The position numbers and the translations under genes were made by a program. From positions 1 through 46,884 of the forward strand of contig JAJYSJ010000019.1 in assembly GCA_021793645.1 (NCBI GenBank): DNA of 46,884 bases, given 5' to 3'. This document shows, piece after piece, positions 1,008-17,359 of this stretch. The DNA comes from Bacillota bacterium. GTDB lineage: Bacteria; Bacillota; Sulfobacillia; JAJZYS01; JAJYTV01. A model generated the notes under the pieces. The model worked only from the letters and a program-made list of their open reading frames with translations. It was not told the origin of the DNA and did no database searches. Positions within the stretch are counted from its first letter, which is position 1, and each line of letters starts with the position of its first letter.

Positions 1008-2963
1008 GTGGCCCTTGAGCAAGCCTTCGTGGCCATCGAGTCGCAGCTCTACGCCGGCCGTGTCGCGCAGCGGCGAGCGCTGCTCGACATGCTGAGGCTC
1101 TCGGCCCAAAGCCCCATAGCGGTCTACATCTACGGACCGCGCGATGTGGGCAAGTCCGCTCTGCTTCGCGCCTTTTTGCGCGACGCCAAGCGACCGTCCG
1201 TCCTACTGCGCGGTGCGGAGGCCGCCGAGGGTGCACAAGCGATCCTCCAGCTGCTCGCGGTGCGGCTCACCGCCGTCGGCGTCCCGACCGACCAAACCTT
1301 GGCTTCGGTGCGGACAGGGCTGCAAAAGGCAGCACGCCGCAGCGGCCTCGTCGTGGCCGTCGACGGCTACGACGACCTGGGTGCCGCGGAACGCTGGCTG
1401 CGCGAGGAGATCCTCTACCACATTGGAGCTGGAGCGATGCTCGTGCTGTGCGGCAGGAGTGCCCCCGCGCAGCTATGGCCAGGTGAACGCGTCTGGCGTG
1501 CATTCGTCCGCCTGCTGCCGCTGGCGGAACTGCCCGAGCAGGAGGCGGATGAACTCCTGCTCCGCCAGGGAGTCGCGCAGGAAAGTCTGCGCAGAGCCGC
1601 CTACGGCACCGTCGGGGGCTGGCCGCGCAGCCTCCTGGCAGCAGCCGATGCCCTGCAGGCGTCCCATGCCTGCAGTCCCATGGAGGTGGCGGGCCGGGTA
1701 CTCGAGCAGATCCTGCATCCGGGCTCCCGGCGTCGCCAGTGGCGGGCGGGCGGCAGTCCCGGCGATGAACTCATCGCGGCTGCCGCGGTGCTGCCGACTG
1801 TGCGAAGGGACGTCCTGCGTGTCGCCGTGGGCGGCAGTGTGCTCGACCAGGGCTGGGAGCTGCTGATGCGCATCGCCCACCCTGGTACGGACGGCTACGC
1901 CATTCCGGAGCGCCTGGGCGCCGCGCTGGAGCGCCATGTCCTGCGTGTCCGCCCCTGGCAGGCCCAGCACTGGCGCGATGCGGCGCTGCATGCCGCGATC
2001 GGACGGCTGCGCGCGCGCCGCGGCATGCCACTGCAGCTGCAGGATTGGCGGGAGATCGCCGTCCTCTGGCGCAACGCTCCCTGGCATGCGGCGCTGCACC
2101 CTGGCGCAGAGAAGAGCGGGCACTGGCGAGTCGAGCGGGCAGACCTGCAGCAGGAGGAGATCGCGGGGCTCCCCGGCGCGTCCCCCGATGCAGCCAAGCT
2201 CTGCATGACGCTCCTGGAGCAGGCCCCTGAATCGATCATCACGCTGCGCGACGACTCGGGACAGCTGCTGGCATGGCTCCTCCTGGTGCCCGCTGCGGCG
2301 CGCGGCGGGCTGCTCGCGGACCACCCACGCTGGAGTTCTCTGCCGTCTGGATCCGGCTTCGGGCACCATGCGCTGCATATGGTGCTGGCCGCAGCGGGGG
2401 AATCCCGGGCAGCTCCGGGCGGTGTCGCCGTCCTGGTGCGTGAAACCGTGCCGGATTGGCTTTCTGCGCGGCGCGTCTTCGCCGAAACAGGCTCCTTGCA
2501 AGGTGCGAACGGTGAGGATCTGCTGCAGGCGCTCGGCTTTCGCCCGATCCCGCCGCTCTTCGCGTGGAGCGAGTTCGAGGTTCCGGGTCAGGCGCACCAA
2601 CTGGTGGAGCGCCTGCCGGCGGGAGCGCGGGTTTCTTCGCCGCCAGAGCGCGAGCGTGCTCTGGCGGTGAAAGAGGCGCTCGGGCGGCTGTTCGACGGCG
2701 ATCTCTCCGGAACGGCGATCGCCCGCTTCCTGCAAGCGCGTGACGGCGAAGGCGCTGATGCGGCCGCCTATGTGCGCGACGCCCTGCTGTCTGCCGACCT
2801 CGGCAAACCGGCCAGCACGGGCCGCGAGATCCTGCGGCTCTACTACGTCGAGCGTCTCGGCTCGCACGAAACCGTCGCTGATCGACTGGAACTGCCGCGC
2901 GCCACCTACTTCCGCCTGCACAAACAGGCGATCGCGCGCCTTTCGTCCGCACTCTGCAACTGA
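1008..2963 (+). CDS. P-loop (STAND/AAA-like) ATPase with C-terminal sigma-region-4-like HTH
   Basis: The 651-residue protein starts at GTG 1008, with GGGAGG about nine bases upstream. Residues 43-50 form a Walker A motif (GPRDVGKS), and GLVVAVDGYDDL near residue 119 is a Walker B-like strand. The arrangement resembles the ATPase module of STAND regulators (NACHT/NB-ARC relatives). The middle is helical and unassigned. The last 60 residues (SHETVADRLELPRATYFRLH, then KQAIARL) look like a DNA-binding HTH of the sigma-70 region 4 type, with the text 'ATYFRLHKQA' as the recognition helix. It is therefore probably a signal-responsive transcription regulator, although the ligand is unknown. A decayed paralogue lies at 32625-33267. 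The exported-protein gene follows 20 bp downstream and is probably co-transcribed. Confidence 0.8.
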   Translation: MALEQAFVAIESQLYAGRVAQRRALLDMLRLSAQSPIAVYIYGPRDVGKSALLRAFLRDAKRPSVLLRGAEAAEGAQAILQLLAVRLTAVGVPTDQTLASVRTGLQKAARRSGLVVAVDGYDDLGAAERWLREEILYHIGAGAMLVLCGRSAPAQLWPGERVWRAFVRLLPLAELPEQEADELLLRQGVAQESLRRAAYGTVGGWPRSLLAAADALQASHACSPMEVAGRVLEQILHPGSRRRQWRAGGSPGDELIAAAAVLPTVRRDVLRVAVGGSVLDQGWELLMRIAHPGTDGYAIPERLGAALERHVLRVRPWQAQHWRDAALHAAIGRLRARRGMPLQLQDWREIAVLWRNAPWHAALHPGAEKSGHWRVERADLQQEEIAGLPGASPDAAKLCMTLLEQAPESIITLRDDSGQLLAWLLLVPAAARGGLLADHPRWSSLPSGSGFGHHALHMVLAAAGESRAAPGGVAVLVRETVPDWLSARRVFAETGSLQGANGEDLLQALGFRPIPPLFAWSEFEVPGQAHQLVERLPAGARVSSPPERERALAVKEALGRLFDGDLSGTAIARFLQARDGEGADAAAYVRDALLSADLGKPASTGREILRLYYVERLGSHETVADRLELPRATYFRLHKQAIARLSSALCN

Positions 2964-2983
2964 TCTTTGAAGGAGACGCACAC

Positions 2984-3508
2984 ATGACCCGTATGAAGCG
3001 GCGTGCACACCGCCGCGCCCTCTGGCGCGGCGGCCTCATGGCGTTCCTGCTCGTTCTGCCGTTCGGCGTACCGGCGGCAGCCGGCAGCTCGCAGAGCCTT
3101 TCTCTCAGCGTGAGCGCGGGTGCGCGCATTGGCAGCGAACGGGTATACACCGCGAACGTCGGCAGATTGTCGGCGGACATACAGGACGTCGTTCTCTACG
3201 AGGGCTCGGGGGCGGATGCGGTGCCTCTCGCAAACCAGACCTGCGTTCGTGCGCCCGGTGCGTCGTGGGAGTGCCTTTTCACACTCACGTCCAAGGAGCG
3301 CTCTGGAACGGCGTCCGTCTTCGCCCTCGCATTCCGGCCAAGCGTCCTGCAGACTCCCATGGCGGCGGATGCGGCAAGTGGGAGCGTTCGGGTTGAAGGC
3401 AGTGCTGCGGCGCCGGCGGCGCCGCTCGCACAAATCTTGCCGATTGCCTTCCTCGGCGTGCTACTCGCCGGATTTCGCATCGTTCAGCAACACAAGGTCC
3501 GCTTTTAA
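2984..3508 (+). CDS. Exported, membrane-anchored protein of unknown function
   Basis: The 174-residue protein starts at ATG 2984 behind a strong ribosome site (GAAGGAGA). The N-terminus is Arg-rich, then hydrophobic (LMAFLLVLPFGVPAAAG), a signal peptide with probable cleavage after AAAG. The mature part is Ser/Ala-rich with two cysteines (residues around 81 and 90) that could pair outside the cell. Near the C-terminus a second hydrophobic stretch (ILPIAFLGVLLAGF) is followed by basic residues, as expected for a membrane anchor. I do not recognise the family. It sits between the ATPase regulator and HtrA, so a surface-sensing or quality-control role is possible but unproven. Confidence 0.75.
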   Translation: MTRMKRRAHRRALWRGGLMAFLLVLPFGVPAAAGSSQSLSLSVSAGARIGSERVYTANVGRLSADIQDVVLYEGSGADAVPLANQTCVRAPGASWECLFTLTSKERSGTASVFALAFRPSVLQTPMAADAASGSVRVEGSAAAPAAPLAQILPIAFLGVLLAGFRIVQQHKVRF

Positions 3509-3581
3509 GCCATTCCTTAGCTTGCGGTGTTACGGTGCAAGTGTCGCAAGAGCTTTCTGAGGGCAAAAGGAGGTATCGCCC

Positions 3582-4685
3582 TTGCACCGCAAGATTATCG
3601 TGCCGCTCGTGGTCGTAGCCGTCATGAGTTCGCTCGCGACCGTCGCGGCGACATCGATCATCGGCAACGGTACGCCGGCGCCTGTCGTCTCGGCGCAAAG
3701 CGTGCAGCCGCAGCCCATTACGACTGCAACCGTTCCGGACATGGTCGCGCGCGTGAACTCCGCCGTTGTGCAGATCAACGCGACGCAGACCCAGCAGGTT
3801 TCTTCGGGCTTCTCCGGATTCCCGGGCTTCAGCGCGCCGACGACTCAGAATGTCGGCGTGCTCGGATCCGGGTTTCTGGTCACATCGACGGGCGAGATCG
3901 TCACGAACGATCATGTCGTGAACGGAGCGCACAACATCGAGGTGACAGTTCTCGGCTACAACAACCCGTTCCCGGCCAAGGTGATCGGATCGGACTACAA
4001 CCTCGACCTCGCGGTGCTGCAGATCCAGGCGCCGAAGCCGCTGCCGTACCTGACATTCGCGGACTCGGCGGGTACGGTGATTGGTGAGCCGGTCGTCGCG
4101 ATCGGCATGCCGTACGGCCTCAGCCACACCGTGACGACCGGTGTCGTCTCGGCGCTCGGCCGTCCGCTGACGATCGGGAACCGCACGTACCGAAACCTGC
4201 TCCAGACGGACGCGGCCATCAACCCTGGGAACTCGGGCGGACCTTTGCTCAACTACCAAGGACAGGTCCTTGGCGTCAACACCGCCGTTTCTACCCAGGG
4301 TCAAGGGATCGGCTTTGCCATCCCGACGAGCACGGTGACGCAGGCGCTGCCGGCCCTGGCGAAGGGGCAGACGCCGCCGGAGCCATGGATGGGTCTCAGC
4401 ATCACCGACATCCAGGGGGCCCAGCAGGTTCCGCAGGGCTACACCTCGCAAGATGGCGTTCTCGTGGAGCAGGTCGTTTCCGGCGGCCCCGCGGCGAAGG
4501 CAGGCATTCAGCCCGGCGACGTGATCCTCTCCTTCAACGGGCAGCCGACGCAGACGGCGGACCAGCTGATCGAAGATGAGGTCACAACGCAAGTTGGCCA
4601 GAAGGTAACGCTTACGGTGTGGCGCAACGGCACCACCATCACGGTGAACATCGTGCTCGGCAAGATGCCCGCGACTGGCGGCTAA
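3582..4685 (+). CDS. htrA: HtrA/DegP-family trypsin-like serine protease with PDZ domain
   Basis: The start is TTG 3582, chosen because a near-perfect AAGGAGGT sits seven bases upstream and the signal anchor begins there. Residues 7-27 form an N-terminal membrane segment. The trypsin fold carries the full catalytic triad: His111 (TNDHVVNG), Asp142 (NLDLAVL) and Ser218 (NPGNSGGPL). A PDZ domain covers roughly residues 270-360 (GVLVEQVVSGGPAAKAGIQP, then GDVILSFNG). At 367 residues the length is normal for the HhoA/HtrA type with one PDZ. It should act outside the membrane as a protease/chaperone on misfolded exported proteins, perhaps including the neighbour at 2984. The serine, glycine and PDZ motifs are intact, so it is probably active. 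Confidence 0.95.
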   Translation: MHRKIIVPLVVVAVMSSLATVAATSIIGNGTPAPVVSAQSVQPQPITTATVPDMVARVNSAVVQINATQTQQVSSGFSGFPGFSAPTTQNVGVLGSGFLVTSTGEIVTNDHVVNGAHNIEVTVLGYNNPFPAKVIGSDYNLDLAVLQIQAPKPLPYLTFADSAGTVIGEPVVAIGMPYGLSHTVTTGVVSALGRPLTIGNRTYRNLLQTDAAINPGNSGGPLLNYQGQVLGVNTAVSTQGQGIGFAIPTSTVTQALPALAKGQTPPEPWMGLSITDIQGAQQVPQGYTSQDGVLVEQVVSGGPAAKAGIQPGDVILSFNGQPTQTADQLIEDEVTTQVGQKVTLTVWRNGTTITVNIVLGKMPATGG

Positions 4686-4691
4686 CCGCAG

Positions 4692-4735
4692 CACACCAAG
4701 GGAGGACGGCCGTGCGGCCGTCCTCCCTTGGTGTG
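4692..4735 (+). terminator. 44-base perfect palindrome after htrA
   Basis: A 21-bp perfect stem (4692-4712 with 4715-4735, two bases between) begins seven bases after the htrA stop. There is no run of T after it. It probably ends or stabilises the htrA message. Confidence 0.7.
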
Positions 4736-4883
4736 AGCTATCCGCTAGCGGGCGGGAGGCACACGGCATCTCCTTGGCTGCTGCGAACAGCAAAGCGGGA
4801 GATGGCGAAGGGCCTGAGCGCAGATGCGTCCGCGCGCCCACGACACCTGCCGCCTGAGCAGGACGCGGCACGCGCCTCAGAGA

Positions 4884-5660
4884 ATGGACCGGATGCTCCA
4901 GTTAGGGGGAGATGCATTGCGCGACGTCTTCGCGTCATGGAGCAGGGTGCTGCGTAGGAGGCCAACCGTGATCGTTCAGATGGCGGTGCCGTACGCCGTG
5001 CTGCTGCTCACCGCATTCTTGGCAGGCATCGGGACGGTTTTTTCCGGCGTGGCTGCCGTGCTGGTCGAGACGGTCCTGATCGCAGTGGTGCTGGCGCTCC
5101 TGGCGTTCGCCCTCGGCGCTGCATTCGGAGCGATCGGCGAGGCGGTGCGCGGAGATGCACCCAGCCCATACTTCGAGCGCGCGCGCAGTTTCTTTTGGCG
5201 AACACTGGGGACCTTCCTCTTGGCGCTCCTTGCAGCCGTTCCCGCCCTGATCGTCGGAGCATTCGGCTTTCTTCTAGCCATGGCGACGGTCGTCGGTGCA
5301 TTGATGACCCCCAGCGCGACCGCGGGACCGCTCTATTTATCGCTTGGCATCATCGTCGTCTTCTTCGCCCTGGCGATTGCCACCGTACCGTTCGTCTACA
5401 GCCTCGAGGCGGGCGTGTTCGTGGCGGGGCGCACCGTGCCCGAGTCCTTCCGCGCCGCCTTCTCTGAGGCATACCGCGGTGGCCGCCTGTGGCGCTGGGT
5501 CCTCATTGCGTTGATCGTTTCGGCGCTTGGTCTTCTCGGCGATCTGCTGCGCGCCATCCCGGGTGTAGTCGGCGTCGCGCTCGGACTCATCGTCTCGGTT
5601 GCAACACTTTGGGCAGGCACCACGCTGGCGTTCGTCAACTGGCAAGCGAACCGGAGCTAG
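4884..5660 (+). CDS. Polytopic membrane protein, paralogue of the one at 41625
   Basis: This protein of about 258 residues has roughly six hydrophobic segments (for example VPYAVLLLTAFLAGIGTVF and ALIVSALGLLGDLL). I place the start at ATG 4884 because the upstream extension is Arg-rich and not hydrophobic. ATG 4893 is the alternative. The stretch AFGAIGEAVRGDAPSPYF, between segments, matches AYGAIGEATWGNAPTPYF in the protein encoded at 41625, so the two are paralogues. The family resembles DUF4013-like or similar uncharacterised integral membrane proteins. No catalytic motif is visible. The last 30 codons reappear fused to an ATPase pseudogene at 33150-33267. Confidence 0.75.
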   Translation: MDRMLQLGGDALRDVFASWSRVLRRRPTVIVQMAVPYAVLLLTAFLAGIGTVFSGVAAVLVETVLIAVVLALLAFALGAAFGAIGEAVRGDAPSPYFERARSFFWRTLGTFLLALLAAVPALIVGAFGFLLAMATVVGALMTPSATAGPLYLSLGIIVVFFALAIATVPFVYSLEAGVFVAGRTVPESFRAAFSEAYRGGRLWRWVLIALIVSALGLLGDLLRAIPGVVGVALGLIVSVATLWAGTTLAFVNWQANRS

Positions 5661-6908: not shown

Positions 6909-7766
6909 CTAGCCTCCCAGGAAGACCTCGACCACCTTGGGGTCCTTGGCCGCGGTCTCGAGTTTGCCGACGAAGATCTCAGCGCCGGCGTTCATCACGA
7001 CGACTTCCTCGGTAACCTTGCCGAGGAAGCCCATCAAGTGCTCGACGATGAGCATCGTGATGCCTTCCTGGCGTAGGGCGTTCAGCTTTGCGGCCACGAG
7101 GTCGAGATCGGCCGGGCCCAAGCCAGCGCCCAATTCGTCGATCAGCAGGAGATGGGGGTCGGTCGCGAGCGCCCGCCCGAGGTCAAGGAGCTTCTGCTGG
7201 GCGGTGTTGAGGGAGTCCGCCGGGCGACCGGCGAGCATTTGCAGGCCGACAAATGCGAGGATGTCGTCCGTCTTGCGTTGGCTTCGCCGGCTGTACATGC
7301 GGGCCACGTCGATGTTCTGACGCACGGTGAGCGAGCCGAAGGGCTTCGGCACCTGGAAGGTGCGGTTGACGCCGTGGTGGCTGAGGTGGTGCGGCGGCTT
7401 GCCCGTGACGTCCACGCCCTGCAGCTCCACCTTGCCGGCGTTCGGCCGGTAGATGCCGGAGATGATGTTGATCAAGGTTGTCTTGCCCGACCCGTTCGGT
7501 CCGACAAGACCGAGCGCCCCGCCCTTGGCCAGTTTGAGGTTCACGCCCTTGAGGGCCTGAGCATTCACTTGGCTTGCCCAGAATTTGAGGCCGGCAAGTT
7601 CCGGCTGCGAGGACGTGGCATATGCCCCCGAGCCAGCGTAGAGCGTCCCGATCGTGATCGCCTTCGGCACAACCGGCGCGGACGAGCTGGGTGTGGAGCC
7701 GCAGCCCGCGGCTAGGAGGCCCGCCGCCGCAGCCAGTACGAACGCGTAGCGCCTGAGATGCATCAT
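6909..7766 (-). pseudogene. Chimeric gene: livK 5' part fused in frame to livG ATPase
   Basis: The start is ATG 7766 (two Met codons in tandem). Residues 1-22 are a lipoprotein signal with lipobox LAAGC, followed by the first 45 residues of a LivK-type binding protein (KAITIGTLYAGSGAYA). Near residue 70 the text switches to the ATPase LivG (LKGVNLKLAKGGALGLVGPN, then GSGKTT at about 92-97, and LLLIDELGAGL as Walker B). The first LivG residues, the rest of LivK, and LivH and LivM are missing. The ABC signature is LNTAQQK. An in-frame deletion of about 3 kb would explain this. A lipoprotein signal on a cytoplasmic ATPase makes function unlikely, although the frame is open throughout. Confidence 0.85.
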
Positions 7767-7859
7767 CACCAATCCTGTCGCCTCCTCAGCAAATTGCTCA
7801 CCGGCGATGAGCGCGTAGAGCATGGGGGCCATCCTTTCGGCATCCGCCGGGTATCGAAT

Positions 7860-7892
7860 CGGTTGGCCCGGCTCGGGGCGCCGGGCCAACCG
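7860..7892 (-). terminator. 13-bp hairpin between livK remnant and livK-livG fusion
   Basis: A perfect 13-bp stem (7860-7872 with 7880-7892, loop of seven) lies after the stop of the livK C-terminal remnant on the minus strand. It is placed as a terminator for that gene. There is no T-run. Confidence 0.6.
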
Positions 7893-7920
7893 GAACGCAG
7901 GGTCCGCGGGCGGCCGTTTG

Positions 7921-8250
7921 TTACTGGCCGGGCGGCGTCACAGCCGAACCGGTCGCGACAGAGGACGGGTAGACGATGACGGTCTTGAGGCCGCTGCCAC
8001 TCGGCTGGAGCTGGGCAACCGGCAGCTGCTCGCCGAGTTGGGCGCCTTCGCTGTTGATCTTGAACTGGCCATCGAGCGTGAACATCGAGATCTTGCCTGC
8101 GGCCGCACGCAGGTCGAGCTGCGAGAGCGACTTGGCGGTCTCAAGCGTCTTCTGAATGGCAAGACCCGTGTTGTAGCCGGCGACGTCGAGAAAGTTCGGT
8201 GCTGAGCCGGTGCTGGACTGGAAGGCCTGGCTGAATGCGGAAAGCGTCAT
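7921..8250 (-). pseudogene. C-terminal remnant of a LivK-type substrate-binding protein
   Basis: About 109 residues match the C-terminus of periplasmic branched-chain amino-acid binding proteins: the helix NTGLAIQKTLETAKSLSQ, the typical DLRAAAGKISMFTLDGQFKI and the strand VIVYP before the end. The usual protein is about 400 residues, so three quarters are absent. Upstream of 8250 the frame soon meets a stop and no binding-protein sequence is seen. Together with the fusion at 6909-7766 this shows that two livK copies once stood in tandem or that a segment was rearranged. Confidence 0.8.
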
Positions 8251-8943: not shown

Positions 8944-8990
8944 TTGATTTGTATAAATCTGGAATGTACGCTTCGATGAGAGCATGCTCT
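8944..8990 (+). promoter_or_regulatory. Candidate promoter and palindromic operator of the RiPP locus
   Basis: TTGATT (8944-8949) and TACGCT (8967-8972) are 17 bases apart and could be a weak -35/-10 pair. A perfect 12-base palindrome AGAGCATGCTCT (8979-8990) lies just downstream, where a repressor could bind. The local sequence is AT-richer than its surroundings. This is assigned by eye only. Confidence 0.35.
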
Positions 8991-9016
8991 ATTTTCCCTG
9001 AAAAGGAGGTTACTAC

Positions 9017-9106
9017 ATGTACGAAGCCCCATACCTCCTCGACATCGAGGAGTTAGCCGGCACGGTGACCGGCGACTGTGGAGGTTGCAGCACTGGCGGA
9101 AGCTGA
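9017..9106 (+). CDS. RiPP precursor peptide, 29 residues
   Basis: ATG 9017 stands seven bases after a near-perfect AAAAGGAGGT. The 29-residue product starts MYEAPYLLDIEEL, an acidic, hydrophobic leader-like part. It ends in DCGGCSTGGS, a Gly/Ser-rich segment with two cysteines spaced C-G-G-C. It directly precedes a PqqD-like protein and a radical SAM/SPASM enzyme, which in known systems bind a leader and modify a core. I infer that YLLDIEELA is the recognition part and that the Cys/Gly segment is the core. The exact leader/core border is not visible. The stop lies 13 bases before a hairpin that would favour expression of this gene over those downstream. Confidence 0.75.
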   Translation: MYEAPYLLDIEELAGTVTGDCGGCSTGGS

Positions 9107-9119
9107 TCCAGCGGGAGCA

Positions 9120-9171
9120 GGCAACGGCAAGCGGCGGGGCAACCTGCCGCTTGCGGTTGCCGCTCCGTTTT
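9120..9171 (+). terminator. Attenuator-like hairpin after the precursor gene
   Basis: A 16-bp stem with one mismatch (9120-9135 with 9146-9161, 10-base loop) is followed by GCTCCGTTTT. It resembles a leaky intrinsic terminator placed between precursor and enzyme genes, a usual way to make excess peptide. Confidence 0.65.
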
Positions 9172-9187
9172 ACAGAGGTGAAAGTTG

Positions 9188-9592
9188 ATGACGGTGTCAG
9201 TTGGGAGGACGCGCGACATTCTTGAACGCGAAAACTACACGGTCTATGTGGACATCCTTCCAGGTGATGGTGGTTTCGCGGGACGAAAGATTTATATCTC
9301 CCACTCAACTCCTGTCTTGATCCCCGAACCGGCTCACCATCACGCCGGTTTCGATCACGTGTTCATCTTGGTTCGGGGCAAGGCTCAGTTGGCCACGGAA
9401 CAAGGGGCCAGGGTGGAAGTCGTTGAGATGAGTCCGGTCTTCCAATATCGAGTAAGTGGGGCGGTGTTACATCAACTCCGGCTTGAGCCAGATTCGATCG
9501 TGGAGAGCCTGTTCGACAAGCAGGCGTGGATGAATGCGAACATCGTGGTGGAACACACCCTCTTCCCGGCTACGGGAGGTGATCCCGCATGA
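9188..9592 (+). CDS. Cupin-domain protein of the RiPP locus
   Basis: The 134-residue single-domain protein starts at ATG 9188 with GAGGTGAAAG upstream. The in-frame TTG three bases before is a weaker choice. The segment HHHAGFDHVFILVRGKAQL (about residues 50-68) resembles the metal-binding first cupin motif (H-x-H...VL-x-G). VLHQL at about 94-98 would supply the second-motif His. Cupins of this size act as small metal enzymes (isomerases, epimerases, dioxygenases) or sensors. Its place directly after the precursor suggests it handles the peptide or its product, but no substrate can be read from sequence. The stop overlaps the next gene's ATG (ATGA). Confidence 0.75.
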   Translation: MTVSVGRTRDILERENYTVYVDILPGDGGFAGRKIYISHSTPVLIPEPAHHHAGFDHVFILVRGKAQLATEQGARVEVVEMSPVFQYRVSGAVLHQLRLEPDSIVESLFDKQAWMNANIVVEHTLFPATGGDPA

Positions 9593-9858
9593 GGGCACTT
9601 GAGATGATAGTCGATGAGCAGCCAGGTGGTGTTTACACCCTCCGCGTGCCGGAAATAGCGAGCGTCTTTGTTACTAACCAGTTGGGCGTCGACATCGTTG
9701 GGAAGCTCGTCGACGCCGACCTCTCTGCCGATGAGGTTGTTGCCTGGGTGCGCGTCAAGTACCCGGACGTGCCTGCCGCGCGCGCGGAGAGCGATGTGCG
9801 GGCGTTTCTGTCGAGAGCACGGGAGAAGGGCGTGGTACTATCCGATGATGCCGATTGA
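9589..9858 (+). CDS. PqqD-like RiPP recognition element (RRE) protein
   Basis: The 89-residue protein starts at ATG 9589, inside the ATGA shared with the cupin gene, with GGGAGGTGAT upstream. The order of a short N-terminal beta part (GGVYTLRVPEIASVFVTN), a helix (GVDIVGKLVDA) and two further helices (SADEVVAWVRVKYP and AESDVRAFLSRAREKGVVL) is that of PqqD/RRE winged-helix proteins. In PQQ, mycofactocin and many radical SAM RiPP pathways this protein binds the leader and presents it to the radical SAM enzyme. The gene overlaps the radical SAM start by 11 to 14 bases, as expected for partners. Confidence 0.8.
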   Translation: MRALEMIVDEQPGGVYTLRVPEIASVFVTNQLGVDIVGKLVDADLSADEVVAWVRVKYPDVPAARAESDVRAFLSRAREKGVVLSDDAD

Positions 9859-11014
9859 GCTGATCGGCAAAGAGGCTAAGCAGTTCCGTCCAACGGTTTA
9901 CTGGTACCTGAGTTTTCGCTGTAATCTGGAGTGTGTGCATTGCTGGGTCAACTCATCTCCACATGTGGACACGTCCACGGACCTCGATGAGGAAGGCGCT
10001 CTTACCACGGCCAAGAAGATCGCCAGCTTTAACCCGACGGCTGTAACCCTCTCTGGTGGCGAACCCCTGCTCCGACGAGATGCTCCGGTGATCATCTCCA
10101 CCCTTCTCGATGACGGGGTGAACGATCTCCGTATCGAGACCAACGGTATGCTTGCCCGTCCGGCGGTAATGAAGCCTCTCGTTGAAGCCAACGAACGAGG
10201 AGTGCACATCGTTATCGCTGGTAGTCTCGACGGAGGTACGGCTGCAGCGCACCAAGCGATGCGCGGTGAGGGCACGTTCGAGATCGCCTTGCGGGGCTAC
10301 CGGCGTTTTCTTGACGCCGGGCTGTGGACAGAGCTTCAGTGTGTGGTAACACGTTTCAATATCCACTCCATACCTGCACTCTTGGATGTCGCCCTTGAGT
10401 TGGGAATCAACCGGCTAAAGTTCGTGTTCGTCAACCCGGTAGGACGAGCGGCCGACCACTTCGACGATCTGTCGATCCCTCATCGCGAGTACGGTGCTGC
10501 TCTTGAGTTCCTGGCCGACTCCGCTGAGGCGTATCCGAGCCTCCTGCGGGTCAAGAGCCCACCCGCCGCGATTCCGCCTCATCTTCTGACCCGCCTTACG
10601 TCCCTGGCTGCGCAGCGGGAAGCCTTTTCCGGCTGTGGCTTTCCTCTGTTGGGTGTCCTGCCCGACGGATCCGTCACGATCTGCGGCCTAACCCGCGACA
10701 ATGCGGACCTGAGACTCGGACACATCCTCGAAGATGAACTGGCGGACCTATGGCGTAAGGGACAAGGTGCGCGGCTTCGGGAGATGTACATGCGTGCCGA
10801 GCTCACCGGCATCTGTGGTGATTGCGTATTCCGCACCAGTTGCAAAGGAGCATGTCGGGCCCACGCGTTCGGTGAGGGGGACTCGTGGAGCGCCCCCTAC
10901 CCCATGTGCGCCGATCTTGAGCGGGAGGGACTGTTCCCCAACGTCTACCGAGCGAGTTTCTTCCGCCGGATTAACCCAGAAACTGCTCCCATCCCTAGCA
11001 GCCGCGATGCTTAG
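9848..11014 (+). CDS. Radical SAM enzyme with full seven-Cys SPASM domain
   Basis: The 388-residue protein starts at ATG 9848 (ATG 9845 is equally possible), overlapping the PqqD-like gene. The radical SAM cluster is CNLECVHC (Cys25, 29, 32). The SAM-binding GGEP motif is at 70-73. The C-terminal SPASM domain has the complete pattern: Cys263, GxxxxC ending at Cys279, then Cys323-x2-Cys326-x5-Cys332-x3-Cys336, and Cys354. It therefore should carry two auxiliary 4Fe-4S clusters, as do PqqE, AnSME and sactipeptide maturases. With the PqqD-like partner it is expected to form a carbon-carbon or carbon-heteroatom bond in the precursor. The chemistry on the Cys/Gly core is unknown. Its stop overlaps the MFS start. 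Confidence 0.9.
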   Translation: MPIELIGKEAKQFRPTVYWYLSFRCNLECVHCWVNSSPHVDTSTDLDEEGALTTAKKIASFNPTAVTLSGGEPLLRRDAPVIISTLLDDGVNDLRIETNGMLARPAVMKPLVEANERGVHIVIAGSLDGGTAAAHQAMRGEGTFEIALRGYRRFLDAGLWTELQCVVTRFNIHSIPALLDVALELGINRLKFVFVNPVGRAADHFDDLSIPHREYGAALEFLADSAEAYPSLLRVKSPPAAIPPHLLTRLTSLAAQREAFSGCGFPLLGVLPDGSVTICGLTRDNADLRLGHILEDELADLWRKGQGARLREMYMRAELTGICGDCVFRTSCKGACRAHAFGEGDSWSAPYPMCADLEREGLFPNVYRASFFRRINPETAPIPSSRDA

Positions 11015-12224
11015 GCCACTTCGATCGGCCCCGTTTGCCTATCTGGTCGCCGGACAATCGCTGTCGCAGCTCGGAGACACGCTTCTCTTTGTCGGTGGGT
11101 TATGGTTCCTTCAGTCCGTGTCGCCCTGGCTGCTCGGCGTTGCGGGGATCGTAATCGCCATCCCGTCGTTTGTCTCTTACCTGGGTGGCGGCTTGGCAGA
11201 TAGCTTGGGCGCTCGTGACCTAATGCGATGGACGGAAGTCGCGCGGGGCATCATCATTGTTGCAGCTGGCGTCACGGCCCTCATGGTGCCTGCGGCCGCA
11301 GCTGTCCTCATCCTGTTGGCCCTTGCCGTATCGGCTTTCGGGGACTCGCTGTTCGTGCCCGCCCAGATCTCATTGGTGCCTCGCCTCCTTAAGGGGGATG
11401 AGGATCTTAATTCCGGAAACGGCATCCTCTCTGGATTGACACGACTCGCTGATATGGTCGGGCGGTTAGTCGGTGGCCTGTCCAGTCTGGCGTTTGGCGT
11501 ATTCGGCTTACTCGCCTTTGATGGCCTAACATTCCTCGGCAGCGCGGTATGCGTGGGCCGCTTGCCCGCTGACGCCCCACCCCCAGGCTCGTCGAACCGG
11601 CGGCGCTTGGCTTGGTCCGACCTCAAAGCTGGATTTGACTACAGTCGTAGCGTCGGGTGGTTCTTCAAGATCGTCCCACCCGCGGTCCTCATCAACCTTG
11701 CGCTGTCCGGAGCTCTGCTCACGCTCCCGATCCTCGTCCAACGAGGTCTGCATCAGGGAGCCGCTACCTACGGTGTCCTCCTTGCCATCTGGTCGGCGGG
11801 CCAGTTTGTGGGTTCCACATCGGCCGCAGTTATGAGGTCTAAGCCCCCTCGGGTTGTATGCGGGACAGCGGCAATAGTGCAAGGTCTTTCGTTGCTCGCC
11901 CTTGCTCTGACCGGTTCCATCTGGATCGCAGCGGTGGCCCTTGGGGTCGCATCCACCGCCAACGGGATCAGCAACGTGTCCCGGACGACGCTGATGCAAC
12001 GGCTCGTCCCAAGCGAGTTCCGCGGTCGGGTATTCGGCTTGCAGAGCACTTTGGTTAGCATGGCAAATCCTTTCGGCCCGTTGCTGGCAACAGCCCTGGC
12101 CCTCAGTGTCTTCCCTGGGGCAATCTGGCTCCTTGTCGCCGCTCCGACACTTTGGTTGGCCATTCTCTACTGGACCTTGCCGGGCTTCCGGTTTAGTCCG
12201 GATGCCCCCGGGGTGCGAGCATGA
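11007..12224 (+). CDS. MFS exporter of the RiPP locus
   Basis: The 405-residue protein starts at ATG 11007, overlapping the radical SAM stop by eight bases. It has about 12 membrane segments in two halves and an MFS-like loop after segment 2 (GGGLADSLGARDLMRW). The second half carries TLMQRLVPSEFRGRVFGLQS, characteristic of the MFS_3/enterobactin-exporter-like group. In this setting it most likely exports the mature peptide or a small product of it, or confers self-resistance. No peptidase-containing ABC exporter is present, so leader removal must be done by another protein, probably the next gene. The following gene overlaps by four bases (ATGA). Confidence 0.85.
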   Translation: MLRPLRSAPFAYLVAGQSLSQLGDTLLFVGGLWFLQSVSPWLLGVAGIVIAIPSFVSYLGGGLADSLGARDLMRWTEVARGIIIVAAGVTALMVPAAAAVLILLALAVSAFGDSLFVPAQISLVPRLLKGDEDLNSGNGILSGLTRLADMVGRLVGGLSSLAFGVFGLLAFDGLTFLGSAVCVGRLPADAPPPGSSNRRRLAWSDLKAGFDYSRSVGWFFKIVPPAVLINLALSGALLTLPILVQRGLHQGAATYGVLLAIWSAGQFVGSTSAAVMRSKPPRVVCGTAAIVQGLSLLALALTGSIWIAAVALGVASTANGISNVSRTTLMQRLVPSEFRGRVFGLQSTLVSMANPFGPLLATALALSVFPGAIWLLVAAPTLWLAILYWTLPGFRFSPDAPGVRA

Positions 12225-12652
12225 ATCTGTCCCGTGCCGTCATCCCTGACCATCCAGCTGTCGTCGCTCTAAGTGAGCGGTCCCCTCGTCGGATTGAGAC
12301 GCTTGCTGACCTCGGGCTGACCGCCGACCAATACCGTGGTTGTCGCGGAATAGAAGCCGCCGTTCAGTCGGGACGGGTGAATTGCATCGACCTTGCCAAC
12401 CTTGTCTGTTCCGTCATGCGACATCGCGGGTGGCGCTCGGATCAAGTCTACGCAGTCCTCGGCGTGCCAATCGCAATGCAAAATGGTGCTCACGCGGTAG
12501 CGGTGTGGCGGGAAGATGACCGATGGCTTTGCGCGGACGTTCAGAATGGGTCAGACCTCCGGGGTGCGCTACCGGAAGGGAAGTGGTTGGTTGCGTACAA
12601 CGACTTGGTAATGAGGGGCTTCCATGAAATCGAGCCCGAGGTGGTACGGTGA
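12221..12652 (+). CDS. Transglutaminase-like cysteine protease (lasso-B2-like)
   Basis: The 143-residue protein starts at ATG 12221 (ATGA overlap with the exporter). A Cys-His-Asp triad is visible: Cys55 in VNCIDLANLVCSVMRHRG, His91 in NGAHAVAVWRE and Asp106 in LCADVQNG. Spacing and flanking text suit the small transglutaminase-like fold used by lasso-peptide B2 leader peptidases. It is therefore the best candidate for removing the leader of the 29-residue precursor. It could also be a different acyl-transfer enzyme. The stop overlaps the next gene's GTG (GTGA). Confidence 0.7.
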   Translation: MNLSRAVIPDHPAVVALSERSPRRIETLADLGLTADQYRGCRGIEAAVQSGRVNCIDLANLVCSVMRHRGWRSDQVYAVLGVPIAMQNGAHAVAVWREDDRWLCADVQNGSDLRGALPEGKWLVAYNDLVMRGFHEIEPEVVR

Positions 12653-13350
12653 TCATCTGGATGGGTACGTTCCAACCCGTGCTGAAGGAGCTTTTTACCC
12701 TCTGGGTGTCTGGCGCGCCGCTGTCCGACATCCAGATGACGATCCTGACTCGGAACGGTCTGGCGTCGTCCGAAGGGCTAGGTCCACGGGTCAATGTGGT
12801 CGGAGATGAGCTTTGGGATCGGATGAGAAGTATCGCGCGCACCCACACCTATGAGGCCAGCCGGTGGCTAGCGGATCTGAACGATCGATTGAAAGGGGAG
12901 TTAGAACCTGGCCCCCGCCTTCTGGCTCTCCTTGCTTTCGGTTTGGACCTTGGATGGGGCGAGCACAGTGATGCGCCAATCGGACAGGATCTGGTCGTTC
13001 ACGTCCTTCCGGATCATGAGGCCGATTTCGGTGTCAACGCTGACTGGAAGGGGAAATTCGGTTACCTTTGGTCCCGGCAGATACGACGGCCTGGCGAGCC
13101 CGCTCCAGGAGGCCGTACGATCCCTCTCGAAGATCCCCAAGGGATCCGCCTAGTGGAGATCGGACGAGAGATTGCCAACCACCTGCCTCCCCAACCGACG
13201 TCATGGTTGGAAGGCGCTGATGCACATCTTATGCGCCGTGTTGCGATGCTCGAAATGGCGTCCCAGATTAACCTTGGGGAGGTGCCCCTCTATCAGGACG
13301 ATGCTACTTGGACCTGGGAGGTGGATTTGCCGTGGCGCCATCTGAGATGA
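12649..13350 (+). CDS. Unrecognised protein of the RiPP locus
   Basis: The 233-residue protein starts at GTG 12649, inside GTGA shared with the protease stop. It is conserved in position within a tightly overlapped operon, so it is a real gene. No family is recognised. The N-terminal third is helical, the centre has a hydrophobic part (GPRLLALLAFGLDLGWG), and the region GQDLVVHVLPDHEADFGVNA is rich in His/Asp that might bind a metal. It has only scattered Trp (13) and no Cys. It may be a tailoring enzyme or an immunity factor. Its stop overlaps the SDR start. Confidence 0.65.
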   Translation: MIIWMGTFQPVLKELFTLWVSGAPLSDIQMTILTRNGLASSEGLGPRVNVVGDELWDRMRSIARTHTYEASRWLADLNDRLKGELEPGPRLLALLAFGLDLGWGEHSDAPIGQDLVVHVLPDHEADFGVNADWKGKFGYLWSRQIRRPGEPAPGGRTIPLEDPQGIRLVEIGREIANHLPPQPTSWLEGADAHLMRRVAMLEMASQINLGEVPLYQDDATWTWEVDLPWRHLR

Positions 13351-14075
13351 TTGCCGTGGTGACTGGATCCTCGTCCGGCCTCGGTCGTGCCATCTGCGAG
13401 CGTTGGCGTGACACAAACCGCCGCTGCTGGGGAATCGACCTTCGCCCGGGAGAGTACACTGACTTGGTGGGCGACGTCCAGGATGATACATTCTTGAAAC
13501 AGGCTTTCGAGTGTGTCGCCCAGCTCGGGCATGTCGACGCCGTCTTTCTCTGCGCCGGCGTGTTAGGAGCAAGATTCCCTGATGACTTGGCTTCAGCCCC
13601 CGAGGTCCTGAGTGTGAACGTCGTTGGGGCATATGCGTCCTTCAGGACCTTTCTTCCACTTCTCGCAAGCGCACCGCGGGGTGGTGCGGCCGTGTTTATC
13701 TCATCGATCTCAGGATCGCGGGGCTCACCATCGCATCCGATCTATGCAGCCTCCAAGGCCGGCGTGGAAGCGATGGTGGGTTCGCTTGCGCCGCAAGCTG
13801 GCAGGCAGGGGGTCAGGGTTGTTGGCCTCAGTCCCGGGTCCATCTTTGGGACACGGTTCAGTGCGGAGAGTACGTCGGTCGACTTGAAGTTGAACCTGCT
13901 CGCTACCAATTCGCTTCCAGCTTTGCTTGGTCCGGAGGGGGTTGCACAGGTGGCAATAACCCTTGCCGGGCCGACGTTTTCCGGGCTCACCGGGACAACA
14001 GTGACCCTAGACTGTGGGGAAAGCTTGGCCCGGGTCGTGCCACAGACGGGAGCATCGGACAGTACCCGAACCTAG
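13347..14075 (+). CDS. Short-chain dehydrogenase/reductase of the RiPP locus
   Basis: The 242-residue protein starts at ATG 13347 (ATGA overlap). It has the nucleotide-binding TGSSSGLG (residues 6-13), the structural CAG motif (residues 69-71), the catalytic Ser in FISSIS and the YAASK pair (Tyr133, Lys137). It should be an active NAD(P)-dependent oxidoreductase. As the last gene of the RiPP operon it may reduce or oxidise a carbonyl or alcohol produced in the peptide or in a released amino-acid-derived product, much as in pathways that trim a RiPP to a small molecule. Confidence 0.8.
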   Translation: MIAVVTGSSSGLGRAICERWRDTNRRCWGIDLRPGEYTDLVGDVQDDTFLKQAFECVAQLGHVDAVFLCAGVLGARFPDDLASAPEVLSVNVVGAYASFRTFLPLLASAPRGGAAVFISSISGSRGSPSHPIYAASKAGVEAMVGSLAPQAGRQGVRVVGLSPGSIFGTRFSAESTSVDLKLNLLATNSLPALLGPEGVAQVAITLAGPTFSGLTGTTVTLDCGESLARVVPQTGASDSTRT

Positions 14076-14520
14076 AACCTAAGATTACTCCGTAGTCGCG
14101 AAAGATGGCGTTCTTGCAGTTCTCTTCAGACCTAATCCGCGGTGCCGAGCGCCTTTAGGAGAACGGCTGGGATTCTCGCGTATCCTGACCCACGGATGGG
14201 TCAGGATACGCCGAAAATGTCCTCGCACCCCTCTTTGGCCGCCGAATAGAGCGTATTCGTAGTCATAATGAGGCACGGCTTTGCTGGAACAGGTCGGCAC
14301 GTAGGTTCGTTCGGTGGTCGGCCGGTTCCGTCCTCTGACCTTGGATACTGAATCGTGTTACTCCTGAGGAGAGGGTCAACAGACGTAAAGTTGCACTCAC
14401 GGTTGCCAAGTGGCGGCCCGTACATCTCGGCTGTACGGGGCGTCTTTCTCTTTGCGAGGTGACTGCGCAATGCCCGAGGCCCCAGGTGGACGCGACCCGT
14501 TTTTCGCACCCCTGGGTATG
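14076..14520. other. Gene-free spacer between RiPP locus and IS3 element
   Basis: Apart from the hairpin at 14178-14211, I see nothing identifiable in these 445 bases. No frame shows convincing protein features. Confidence 0.5.
14178..14211 (+). terminator. Hairpin at the end of the RiPP locus
   Basis: A perfect 15-bp stem (14178-14192 with 14197-14211) with a CGGA tetraloop lies 103 bases after the SDR stop. There is no T-run. It is probably the operon terminator. Confidence 0.6.
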
Positions 14521-14559: not shown

Positions 14560-15513
14560 TCACGAAGCGCGTGATTCCTGCCCGGTCGTCTCTCCGGGGC
14601 AGCACCTCCTCTCAAACTCTGCAGGGCTGATCTGGCCAAGCGTGGAGTGACGACGCCAGCGGTTGTAGAACGCCTCGATGTACTCGAAGATGGCAGACTG
14701 CAGCGCCCTGCGCGTCGGCCAAGTACGACGGTCGAAGAGCTCGGTCTGCAGCGTCGCCCAGAAACTCTCGGCGGCAGCATTGTCGAGGGCGTCTCCTACG
14801 GTGCCCATGGAGCCGAGGATGCCAGCCTCGCTGAGGCGCTGGCCGAAGGCGAGCGCGGTGTACTGGGCGCCGTGACCGGAATGGTGCACGAGGCCGGGAG
14901 CCGGCTTGCGGTTGAAGATGGCCATGTTCAAGGCCTGGATGACGAGGTCTGAGCGCAGATGATCGGCCATGGCCCGGCCGACGACGCGGCGCGAGAACAG
15001 GTCAAGCACCGCGGCCAGGTAGAGCCAGCCTTCGGCGGTCGGATGCTGCGTGATGTCGGCCACCCAGACCTGGTTCGGTGCCGAGGCGGTGAATTGCCGC
15101 TGCACGAGGTCGGGGGACGGCGTCCGGCGTGGATCACGCCGCGTCGTGCCAGTTGTCTTCCTGCGGCTGATGCCGGCAATCCCGGCGCTGCGCATGAGTC
15201 TCGCCACCCGCTTGCGCGAGCAACGCACTCCGTCGCCGATCTGGAGTTCTGCGTGCACCCGCGGTGCGCCGTAGGTCCCGCGGCTCTCGCGATGGATCTG
15301 CCGGATCCGCTGTGCCAGATGCCTGTCGGCCTGCTCCCGCCGCGAGGGCCCGCGCTTGCGCCACGCATAGTACCCGCTGGGGGAAACGCCGACCACGCGG
15401 CAGAGGATGATCACGCTGTGCGACGCCTTCTCCGCGTCAACGAAGCGGAACGCCGCTACGGGTTCCGGCTCTGCTCCTTGGCGAAGAAGGCTGCGGCTTT
15501 TTTTGGATTTCAC
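14560..15513 (-). pseudogene. IS3-family transposase OrfB, catalytic residue lost and out of frame
   Basis: The frame contains the helical IS3 region (YGAPRVHAELQIG), the first catalytic Asp (NQVWVADITQHPT) and the Glu motif (NAAAESFWATLQTE), ending FYNRWRRHSTLGQISPAEFE. The second catalytic Asp, normally in HHSDRGSQY, is replaced: the text is HHSGHGAQY. In addition, the -1 frame entered from orfA at the A7 run gives KKAAAFFAKEQSRNP and then stops. OrfB continues only in a third frame, indicating a one-base deletion near 15462. Both defects argue for an inactive transposase. Confidence 0.85.
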
Positions 15514-15751
15514 GCTCTTCCCGCAGAACTCGGTTCTCTCGCCACAGGCGCCTGAGCTCGTCGCGCTCCGCCTCCGTCAGGCCCTCACGCTTGCCTTCTT
15601 CGACCTCAGCTCGCTGTATCCACTGGCGCAAGGACTCCACGGACACCCCGAGGTCCCTCGCCACCGCCGCCATCGGCTTCCCGTGCTCCCGAACCAGCCG
15701 TACGGCCTCCTCCCGGAACTCCGGAGGATATGGCCTTCTCGAACTCGGCAT
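15437..15751 (-). CDS. IS3-family transposase OrfA (HTH protein)
   Basis: The 104-residue protein begins MPSSRRPYPPEFREEAVRLV and shows the classic OrfA helix-turn-helix (AAVARDLGVSVESLRQWI) and a leucine-rich stretch. Near its end the message holds seven A followed by G (minus strand, around 15498), the usual A-AAA-AAG slippery site for -1 frameshifting into OrfB. The downstream orfB is broken, so the fusion transposase cannot be made. Confidence 0.85.
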   Translation of the reverse strand: MPSSRRPYPPEFREEAVRLVREHGKPMAAVARDLGVSVESLRQWIQRAEVEEGKREGLTEAERDELRRLWRENRVLREEREIQKKPQPSSPRSRAGTRSGVPLR

Positions 15752-15793
15752 CCGGACTGCCTCCTACCCGAGGGCTATTACCCCCTAGTGCCA

Positions 15794-17359
15794 GCCCGTC
15801 CACCGAACCGGGTCAACCTCGCCGGGAGGTGCTGTTCCAACCAGTCCCGGTCGTACTGCAGAAGCCATTTGTAGAGCGCATGTGCCACGTACCGGAGCCT
15901 GGTCCGACTTGCATGTGGGTTGGCTGAGCACACCTCTATCCAGCGTCGCCGTTGGTCTTCGACGCGGAACCGCGGTCCAGTAGCTGGGGACTGGCGCCGG
16001 CTCGGCGCTGGGAGGTGCTGTTCCAACCAGTCCCGATCGTGATGCCAAAGCCAATAGTAGAGCGTGTATGCCACCTCCCTGAGCCTGGTCCGATTTGCAC
16101 CTGGGTTCGTCGAGCACACCTCGACCCAGCGCCGCCGTTGGTCTTCAAGGCGGAGGCGCGGTCCAGTAGCTGGGGACTGGCGCCGGCCCGGCGCTGGGAG
16201 GTGCTGTTCCAACCAGTCCCGATCGTGATGCCAAAGCCAGTAGTAGAGCGCACACGCCATCTCCCTGAGCCTGGTCCGCGTCGCATTTGGGTTGGCTGAA
16301 CAAACCTCGATCCAGCGCCGCCGTTGGCCGTCAACCCGGAAGTGCGGACTGGCGCCCGGGCCCAGGCGCGGCGGAAGATGTTGTTCCAACCAGTCCCGGT
16401 CATGCTTCCAAAGCCAATCGAAGAGGGCTGGCGCAGCGCGCCTCAGGAGCTGTCGACTTGCATTTGGGTTGGTTGAGCACACCTCGATCCATCTCTGCCG
16501 TTGATCTTCCATGCGGAGACGAGTCGCGGTGGTCTCGGCGCGCCGTGTCTGCTGCACAACGTCTAGTCCCATACGGGCGTGCCGAGACTCTGTTGGCAAG
16601 TAGGCAGAAACGCCGCATGGCGAGCCCAGGACGCCAACGTCTAGTCCCAAAAAGTCTAGCAACACCAGGTGAAGCACTGGAGATTTTGCAAGTAAGGTGG
16701 TAGCCAAATCCGCCCACGCGGGTGTCTGCGAGCCGCGCGTGCTTCTGGTCAGCCACTCCCCTGCGCCAGCGGGCAGCCACGCATCGATGGCTGCAGAAAG
16801 TTCGGATCGGGCGATGTGCTCGTCTTCCGTGGCGAATCCCCTGGTTGCCAGCTCAATCCGGTACCGTTCCGAAACAGAGCGGAGGCCCGCAGGTCGTTGC
16901 GAATGATCTAGGAGTTCGCGACCGCAGGGCGTATCGAAGCAGGAACTGATCCAGAGGATTGTCCTCAACGATAGGGCGCGACGGCGGTACCGTTTCTACG
17001 GCTTGAGCGGCCGACACCACGGAGTAGCGCCAGTGCTGCAAGGGCAACGACGATGCGCACAAGTGCACTCGATGCTGAGGGCACACGACGACTCCGGGAG
17101 CTTGATGCAGCCTGTGCCAGTATGGAAAGCCAAGTATCCGCGTTTCATTGATTGCGCACTCTCCTGCGGGACGCGTTAGGCGAAATCGCACAAAGACAGA
17201 GCTATTCGCTAAGACCATGCACCCTTTGCCTAGCGAACACACGTAGCACTGCCACCGGGCAGTTGCTACCCTCTTGTTTGCGTTTCCAACAAACTCTTGA
17301 AACAAAGGATTGGCATAACAATCTGTTACCGATACGTTGCATACGGGATTTTGGGGCAA
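15794..17359 (-). pseudogene. TnsD/TniQ-like transposition protein, frameshifted and IS-truncated
   Basis: The N-terminal frame (from 17359) contains GFPYWHRLHQAPGVVVCPQH, the hallmark of the TniQ domain of TnsD, the Tn7-type target-selection protein. The usual zinc-ribbon cysteines upstream (CYVC) are partly visible. A frameshift near 16925 passes the reading into the second frame (RSRELLDHSQRPAGLRSVSE-type text). The C-terminal part has four repeats of WIEVCSxNPxAxRTRLR with YxWLWxHDRDWLEQHLP. The IS3 element cuts off its end at 15793. TnsB/TnsC partners are not in the window. Confidence 0.8.
15826..16510 (-). repeat. Four in-frame repeats of about 186 bp in the tnsD-like gene
   Basis: GTTCCAACCAGTCCC recurs at about 15834, 16020, 16206 and 16383, so the period is about 186 bp (62 codons), with one 177-bp unit. 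Each repeat codes for a small helical, Trp-rich unit. The two central units are nearly identical in DNA, indicating recent tandem duplication. Confidence 0.8.

Follow-up and report, generated by a model that had tools for sequence, protein, structure and literature searches.

Do the eight genes at 9017-14075 (+) of a 46,884-nucleotide stretch of DNA from a Bacillota bacterium (referred to here as the window) form a RiPP locus, and if so, does that locus belong to a class that has already been described? A sequence-only reading had taken them for a compact RiPP locus of undescribed type. Analysis of the encoded proteins, and comparison with related loci in other genomes, suggests that this is probably a RiPP cluster of the radical SAM/SPASM type, lying outside any described class that could be found here.

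Organization of the gene cluster

All eight frames are present on one strand, and six stop/start junctions overlap from the cupin-like gene on, as the sequence-only reading had it. The cluster opens with a precursor peptide gene (9017-9106, +; 29 aa, MYEAPYLLDIEELAGTVTGDCGGCSTGGS, ATG start), which is preceded by a strong Shine-Dalgarno sequence, AAAAGGAGG (9001-9009, +), and followed, in the gap before the enzyme genes, by a stem-loop (9114-9166, +; z −6.4) that is a probable attenuator. The next frames encode a cupin-like protein of 134 aa (9188-9592, +), a discrete PqqD-type RRE of 89 aa (9589-9858, +; PF05402, E 1.8e-8), a radical SAM/SPASM maturase (rSAM) of 388 aa (9848-11014, +; Pfam Radical_SAM and SPASM) and an MFS exporter of 405 aa (11007-12224, +; PF07690 (MFS_1), E 4.6e-25). 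A transglutaminase-like protein of 143 aa, a probable leader protease (12221-12652, +; PF01841 (Transglut_core), E 7e-5, 0.4 bits above the cut-off), an unknown protein of 233 aa with a GTG start (12649-13350, +) and a short-chain dehydrogenase (SDR) of 242 aa (13347-14075, +; Pfam adh_short, with TGxxxGxG and YxxxK motifs) complete the set. The most likely start of the rSAM is ATG 9848, ATG 9845 being also possible, and that of the SDR is ATG 13347.

Pfam thus confirms the labels given earlier to the RRE, the rSAM with its SPASM domain, the MFS, the transglutaminase-like protein and the SDR, whereas the precursor peptide, the cupin-like protein and the 233-aa protein have no match among Pfam or NCBIfam models. 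The rSAM carries an intact CX3CX2C motif (C25, C29, C32) plus seven SPASM cysteines, which bears out the complete seven-Cys SPASM domain read earlier.

Distribution of the radical SAM maturase and its partners

Searches with the rSAM covered 398 genomes of the phylum and 154 of the class, and five places outside the window's own genome stood clear of background; the other matches were weaker, and most of L010-L035 were left out on score. Four of the five places belong to four genomes of three families, and their rSAMs are of the same clade as that of the window, with identities of 41% (G171), 42% (G518), 41% (G515) and 31% (G056). At each of these, as in the window, a discrete PqqD-type RRE, which aligns with that of the window, adjoins the rSAM, and a precursor gene lies upstream. 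Precursor, RRE and rSAM are constant across the five intact loci (window, G171, G518, G515 and G056), the only intact ones found.

The fifth place, in G158 (L036 ∼2800-5000, −), is a decayed locus, whose rSAM, also of this clade (52% identity), is present as two pieces that overlap, lie in different frames and include a stop, while its MFS gene is intact; no RRE was found adjoining the decayed rSAM. An IS-like transposase remnant and a CSTGGY-stop frame (L036 ∼4947, −) lie upstream of this rSAM, and the frame, a possible precursor remnant, was excluded from the evidence.

No further same-clade rSAM came from alignment searches in the G056 and G171 classes or from two more classes, and two additional searches of the phylum, made on largely the same genome draw, added no member. 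None was found in the genome contig or viral contig collections with the rSAM or its alignment as query, and tblastn against plasmids returned distant enzymes only, mostly of the TIGR04053/TIGR04347 types. The gene set is sparse and scattered, as expected for a horizontally moved natural-product cluster. Among the few rejected matches whose surroundings were read, L062 lies in a group of heme-synthesis genes and L047 is an rSAM of another kind. The PADLOC matches of the rSAM are viperins and reflect the common fold. In G514 (L055 / L047), a 38-residue frame ending MTNCGCL stands ahead of an rSAM of 476 aa that is extended at its N terminus; this looks like a different rSAM RiPP. The window's own genome holds two rSAM/SPASM-like proteins of 30-31% identity lying 27 kb apart (G000:C28 178890-179927 and 206777-207787; L002, L003).

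The precursor peptide and its core

Precursors of the relatives have 29-36 residues and occur as one or two copies per locus, upstream of the RRE gene. They are MMKKYEKPILVALHEVASDCGICNTGGQAVA in G171, MKKWQTPILVDLEDVAADCGICATSGTTNNNNKIQ in G518 (GTG start), the tandem pair MYQKPVLIDLMEMENAACDWCVCVTGGSL and MYVKPILVDLEEMNGAACDWCVCVTGGSL in G515 (GTG starts), and MKNKEYEKPVLISLDDVLVDGICITGGGSNQERSPK in G056. Alignment with the window peptide reveals invariant M1, P5, L7, C24, T26 and G28 and a Y or W at position 2, giving a [Y/W]xxPxL leader and a Cys24-x-Thr26-[Gly/Ser]-Gly core in all six precursors (Cys24-x-Thr26-Gly-Gly in the window). The 29-residue frame, whose conservation had been set beforehand as a point on which the earlier proposal could fall, is therefore kept by related loci in four other genomes, well beyond chance. 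The CGGC core proposed with it is not conserved, since the G056 precursor lacks Cys21 and has a single Cys. An Asp stands four residues ahead of Cys24 (D-x3-C) in five of the six precursors, the spacing failing in G056.

In a six-frame scan of 668 kb of fetched DNA, a regular expression of the precursor layout had no match beyond these loci; being built from the same peptides, it shows specificity and not an independent discovery rate. The stem-loop behind the precursor gene also recurs in G171, G515 and G518 (z −4.9, −4.3 and −3.0), at the same place as in the window and with a differing sequence each time, and is unconvincing in G056 (z −1.6); it is thus seen at four of the five loci.

The SDR, the orphan protein and the accessory genes

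An SDR was found in all five intact loci. In each of G518, G515 and G056, no SDR matches that of G171 as well as the cluster copy does, and the margin is clear, whereas the window SDR is the seventh-best match to the relatives' SDR within its own genome and is not specifically close. Directly 3′ of the rSAM in G171, G518, G515 and G056 lies a gene for an orphan protein of 312-342 aa with no Pfam or NCBIfam match, and the four proteins align clearly (24-41% identity to the first). The 233-aa protein of the window sits further downstream, and its similarity to these proteins is collinear and weak (hhalign E 0.0045; 2 of 500 shuffles reach the score obtained against L054). Their homology is graded as weak because HMMER, run with a profile of the four relatives' proteins, missed the window copy; the single-sequence structure prediction of the 233-aa protein was too poor for use. 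With the window copy included in the profile, strong matches in 398 genomes were confined to these loci, and two marginal ones lay elsewhere. The rank of the SDR and the weak similarity of the 233-aa protein suggest that the window may be a divergent member, or subtype, of the family.

The remaining genes differ from locus to locus. The cupin-like gene was seen only in the window, and the name cupin could not be confirmed: it was taken from the His-rich motif HHHAGFDH, the protein matches nothing in Pfam, NCBIfam or the PDB, and its single-sequence fold prediction was too poor. No transglutaminase-like gene was found in the relatives' loci either; the window protein has a possible C55/H91/D106 triad. 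Among the relatives only G158 shares the MFS, which there follows the rSAM; G171, G518 and G056 have an ABC-2 exporter and a CPBP protease (PF02517), and an X-Pro dipeptidyl peptidase lies downstream in G515. An exporter, MFS or ABC-2, is thus present at all but one of the five intact loci and at the decayed G158. Judged by gene content, the cupin-like, MFS and transglutaminase-like genes are accessory, exporter and protease varying between loci. Downstream of the G518 cluster (L053 12716-15853) is a long frame that by eye has the look of a cobalamin-type radical SAM.

The earlier view of a defining eight-gene combination therefore stands as far as the RiPP locus itself goes, and narrows to a set of precursor, RRE, rSAM and SDR, with the orphan protein, clear in the relatives, as a further part.

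Flanking regions

The G+C content of the cluster is about 58-62%, as compared to about 66% upstream. The upstream region (6909-8250, −) holds a chimeric or decayed ABC transporter of the branched-chain type, in which the start of a binding protein runs on in frame into an ABC ATPase and the C-terminal part of the binding protein lies in a separate frame. Downstream, an IS3-type transposase pair lies beside a C-terminal TnsD remnant (15778-16968, − and 14560-15751, −), the latter being a protein of five C-terminal TnsD (Tn7-like) repeats (PF15978, E 2.5e-51). The decay formerly ascribed to the neighbours on both sides is thus seen in part, as transporter pieces on one side and as an IS3 element with a TnsD remnant on the other. 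Together with the G+C contrast, these features suggest, without proving, a horizontal arrival of the cluster, and the TnsD-repeat protein and the IS3 pair are a possible trace of how it moved.

Comparison with described systems

Among the best 25 of 70 NCBIfam model matches, the rSAM stays far below each cut-off. The best of these is ScmF of the SynChlorMet cassette (TIGR04251; 165 bits, cut-off 400), a cut-off reached by none of 20 relatives' rSAMs, followed by the mycofactocin (TIGR03962; 102 bits, cut-off 265), StsB (NF045574; 86 bits, cut-off 625) and PqqE (TIGR02109; 64 bits, cut-off 381) models. The SynChlorMet cassette also resembles the present loci in its PqqD-type partner (ScmD, TIGR04248), and no paper on it was found in the open literature. 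No description of the full gene combination was found in the open-licence papers searched. As the rSAM lies below the NCBIfam cut-offs and none of these papers holds the combination, the loci are put forward as a possible new family among rSAM RiPPs that depend on an RRE; the earlier claim of an undescribed class is upheld to this extent, that is, within NCBIfam, Pfam and open-licence papers.

The same genes could instead encode a diverged sactipeptide or ranthipeptide pathway resembling StsABC or PapB, in which the thioether would be of a familiar kind and the accessory genes ordinary, a reading that we consider unlikely. The StsA/StsB/StsC system shares the discrete PqqD-type RRE, the W/YxxP leader and the rSAM/SPASM maturase, and its RRE, StsC, requires a WxxP leader (PMC12710340); the sactisynthase SkfB, along with PqqE, is also the nearest solved structure to the rSAM by sequence. 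PapB, for its part, forms Cys-Asp thioethers at CX3D (PMC9413430), and Cys and Asp stand four residues apart here too as possible cross-link partners. However, the StsB model matches far under its cut-off, and the present core has one invariant Cys and, in place of the six CX3D sites, a single D-x3-C in reversed order. Moreover, no counterpart of the conserved SDR and orphan protein was found in those systems.

The presence of an SDR beside a PqqD-type RRE and an rSAM/SPASM recalls mycofactocin and PQQ, and the mycofactocin model does match the rSAM, so that a peptide-derived redox cofactor with the SDR as its user or maker was considered. This is very improbable: the model score is far under its cut-off, the core differs and lacks the PQQ or mycofactocin residues, the distribution is scattered, and exporters stand beside most of the loci. 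Still less credible is a lasso-type or linear-phosphopeptide (LPP) pathway that acquired an rSAM. Discrete RREs of the lasso and LPP pathways bind [Y/W]xxPx[L/V/I/F/A] leaders (PMC13381572), a leader of that type stands with a discrete RRE here, and with the transglutaminase-like protease of the window the YxxPxL leader and RRE resemble lasso A/B1/B2. On the other hand, the constant partner and maturase is the rSAM, and no transglutaminase-like gene was found in the relatives. Neither a cyclase nor an HprK-like kinase nor an archaeal-type signal peptidase was seen in the neighbourhood, and no macrolactam synthetase is among the eight of the window, each of which was either identified or without a match.

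Proposed pathway and its significance

An rSAM RiPP cluster that is probably outside these classes thus accounts best for the observations. A conserved precursor beside an RRE and an rSAM predicts peptide modification by an RRE-dependent radical-SAM RiPP pathway. The RRE would bind the [Y/W]xxPxL leader and pass the peptide to the rSAM, a prediction that is well founded because all six precursors carry the published RRE-binding motif. The rSAM would then act on the short C-terminal core around Cys24-x-Thr26-[Gly/Ser]-Gly. Because a single Cys is invariant, with x-Thr-[Gly/Ser]-Gly behind it and, in most precursors, an Asp four residues ahead, the leading guess at the reaction is a thioether that links Cys24 to a carbon of some nearby residue, Asp20 being the best candidate partner; the chance of this is put somewhat short of even.

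On family knowledge, the SDR and the orphan protein may tailor the product, e.g. by redox change at a hydroxyl or carbonyl group; the leader would be cut off by the transglutaminase-like protease, a role possibly taken by CPBP or X-Pro peptidases elsewhere, and the MFS, or ABC-2 elsewhere, would export the product. The hairpin 3′ of the precursor gene would let the precursor exceed the enzymes in amount. A bolder version, in which the loci form a new RiPP class whose RRE-guided rSAM/SPASM builds an unprecedented structure on the Cys-x-Thr-Gly-Gly core, with a dedicated SDR and orphan protein and interchangeable protease and exporter, is possible and remains rather doubtful.

The substrate-enzyme set is very small, consisting of a 29-residue peptide, an 89-aa RRE and a 388-aa rSAM, and comes with four divergent natural comparators; its chemistry is therefore directly testable by co-expression. 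The family would combine a leader code of the lasso type with radical chemistry, and it brings in a protein family, of 312-342 aa in the relatives, that no Pfam or NCBIfam model covers. It is a lead to new natural-product chemistry that can be put to the test.
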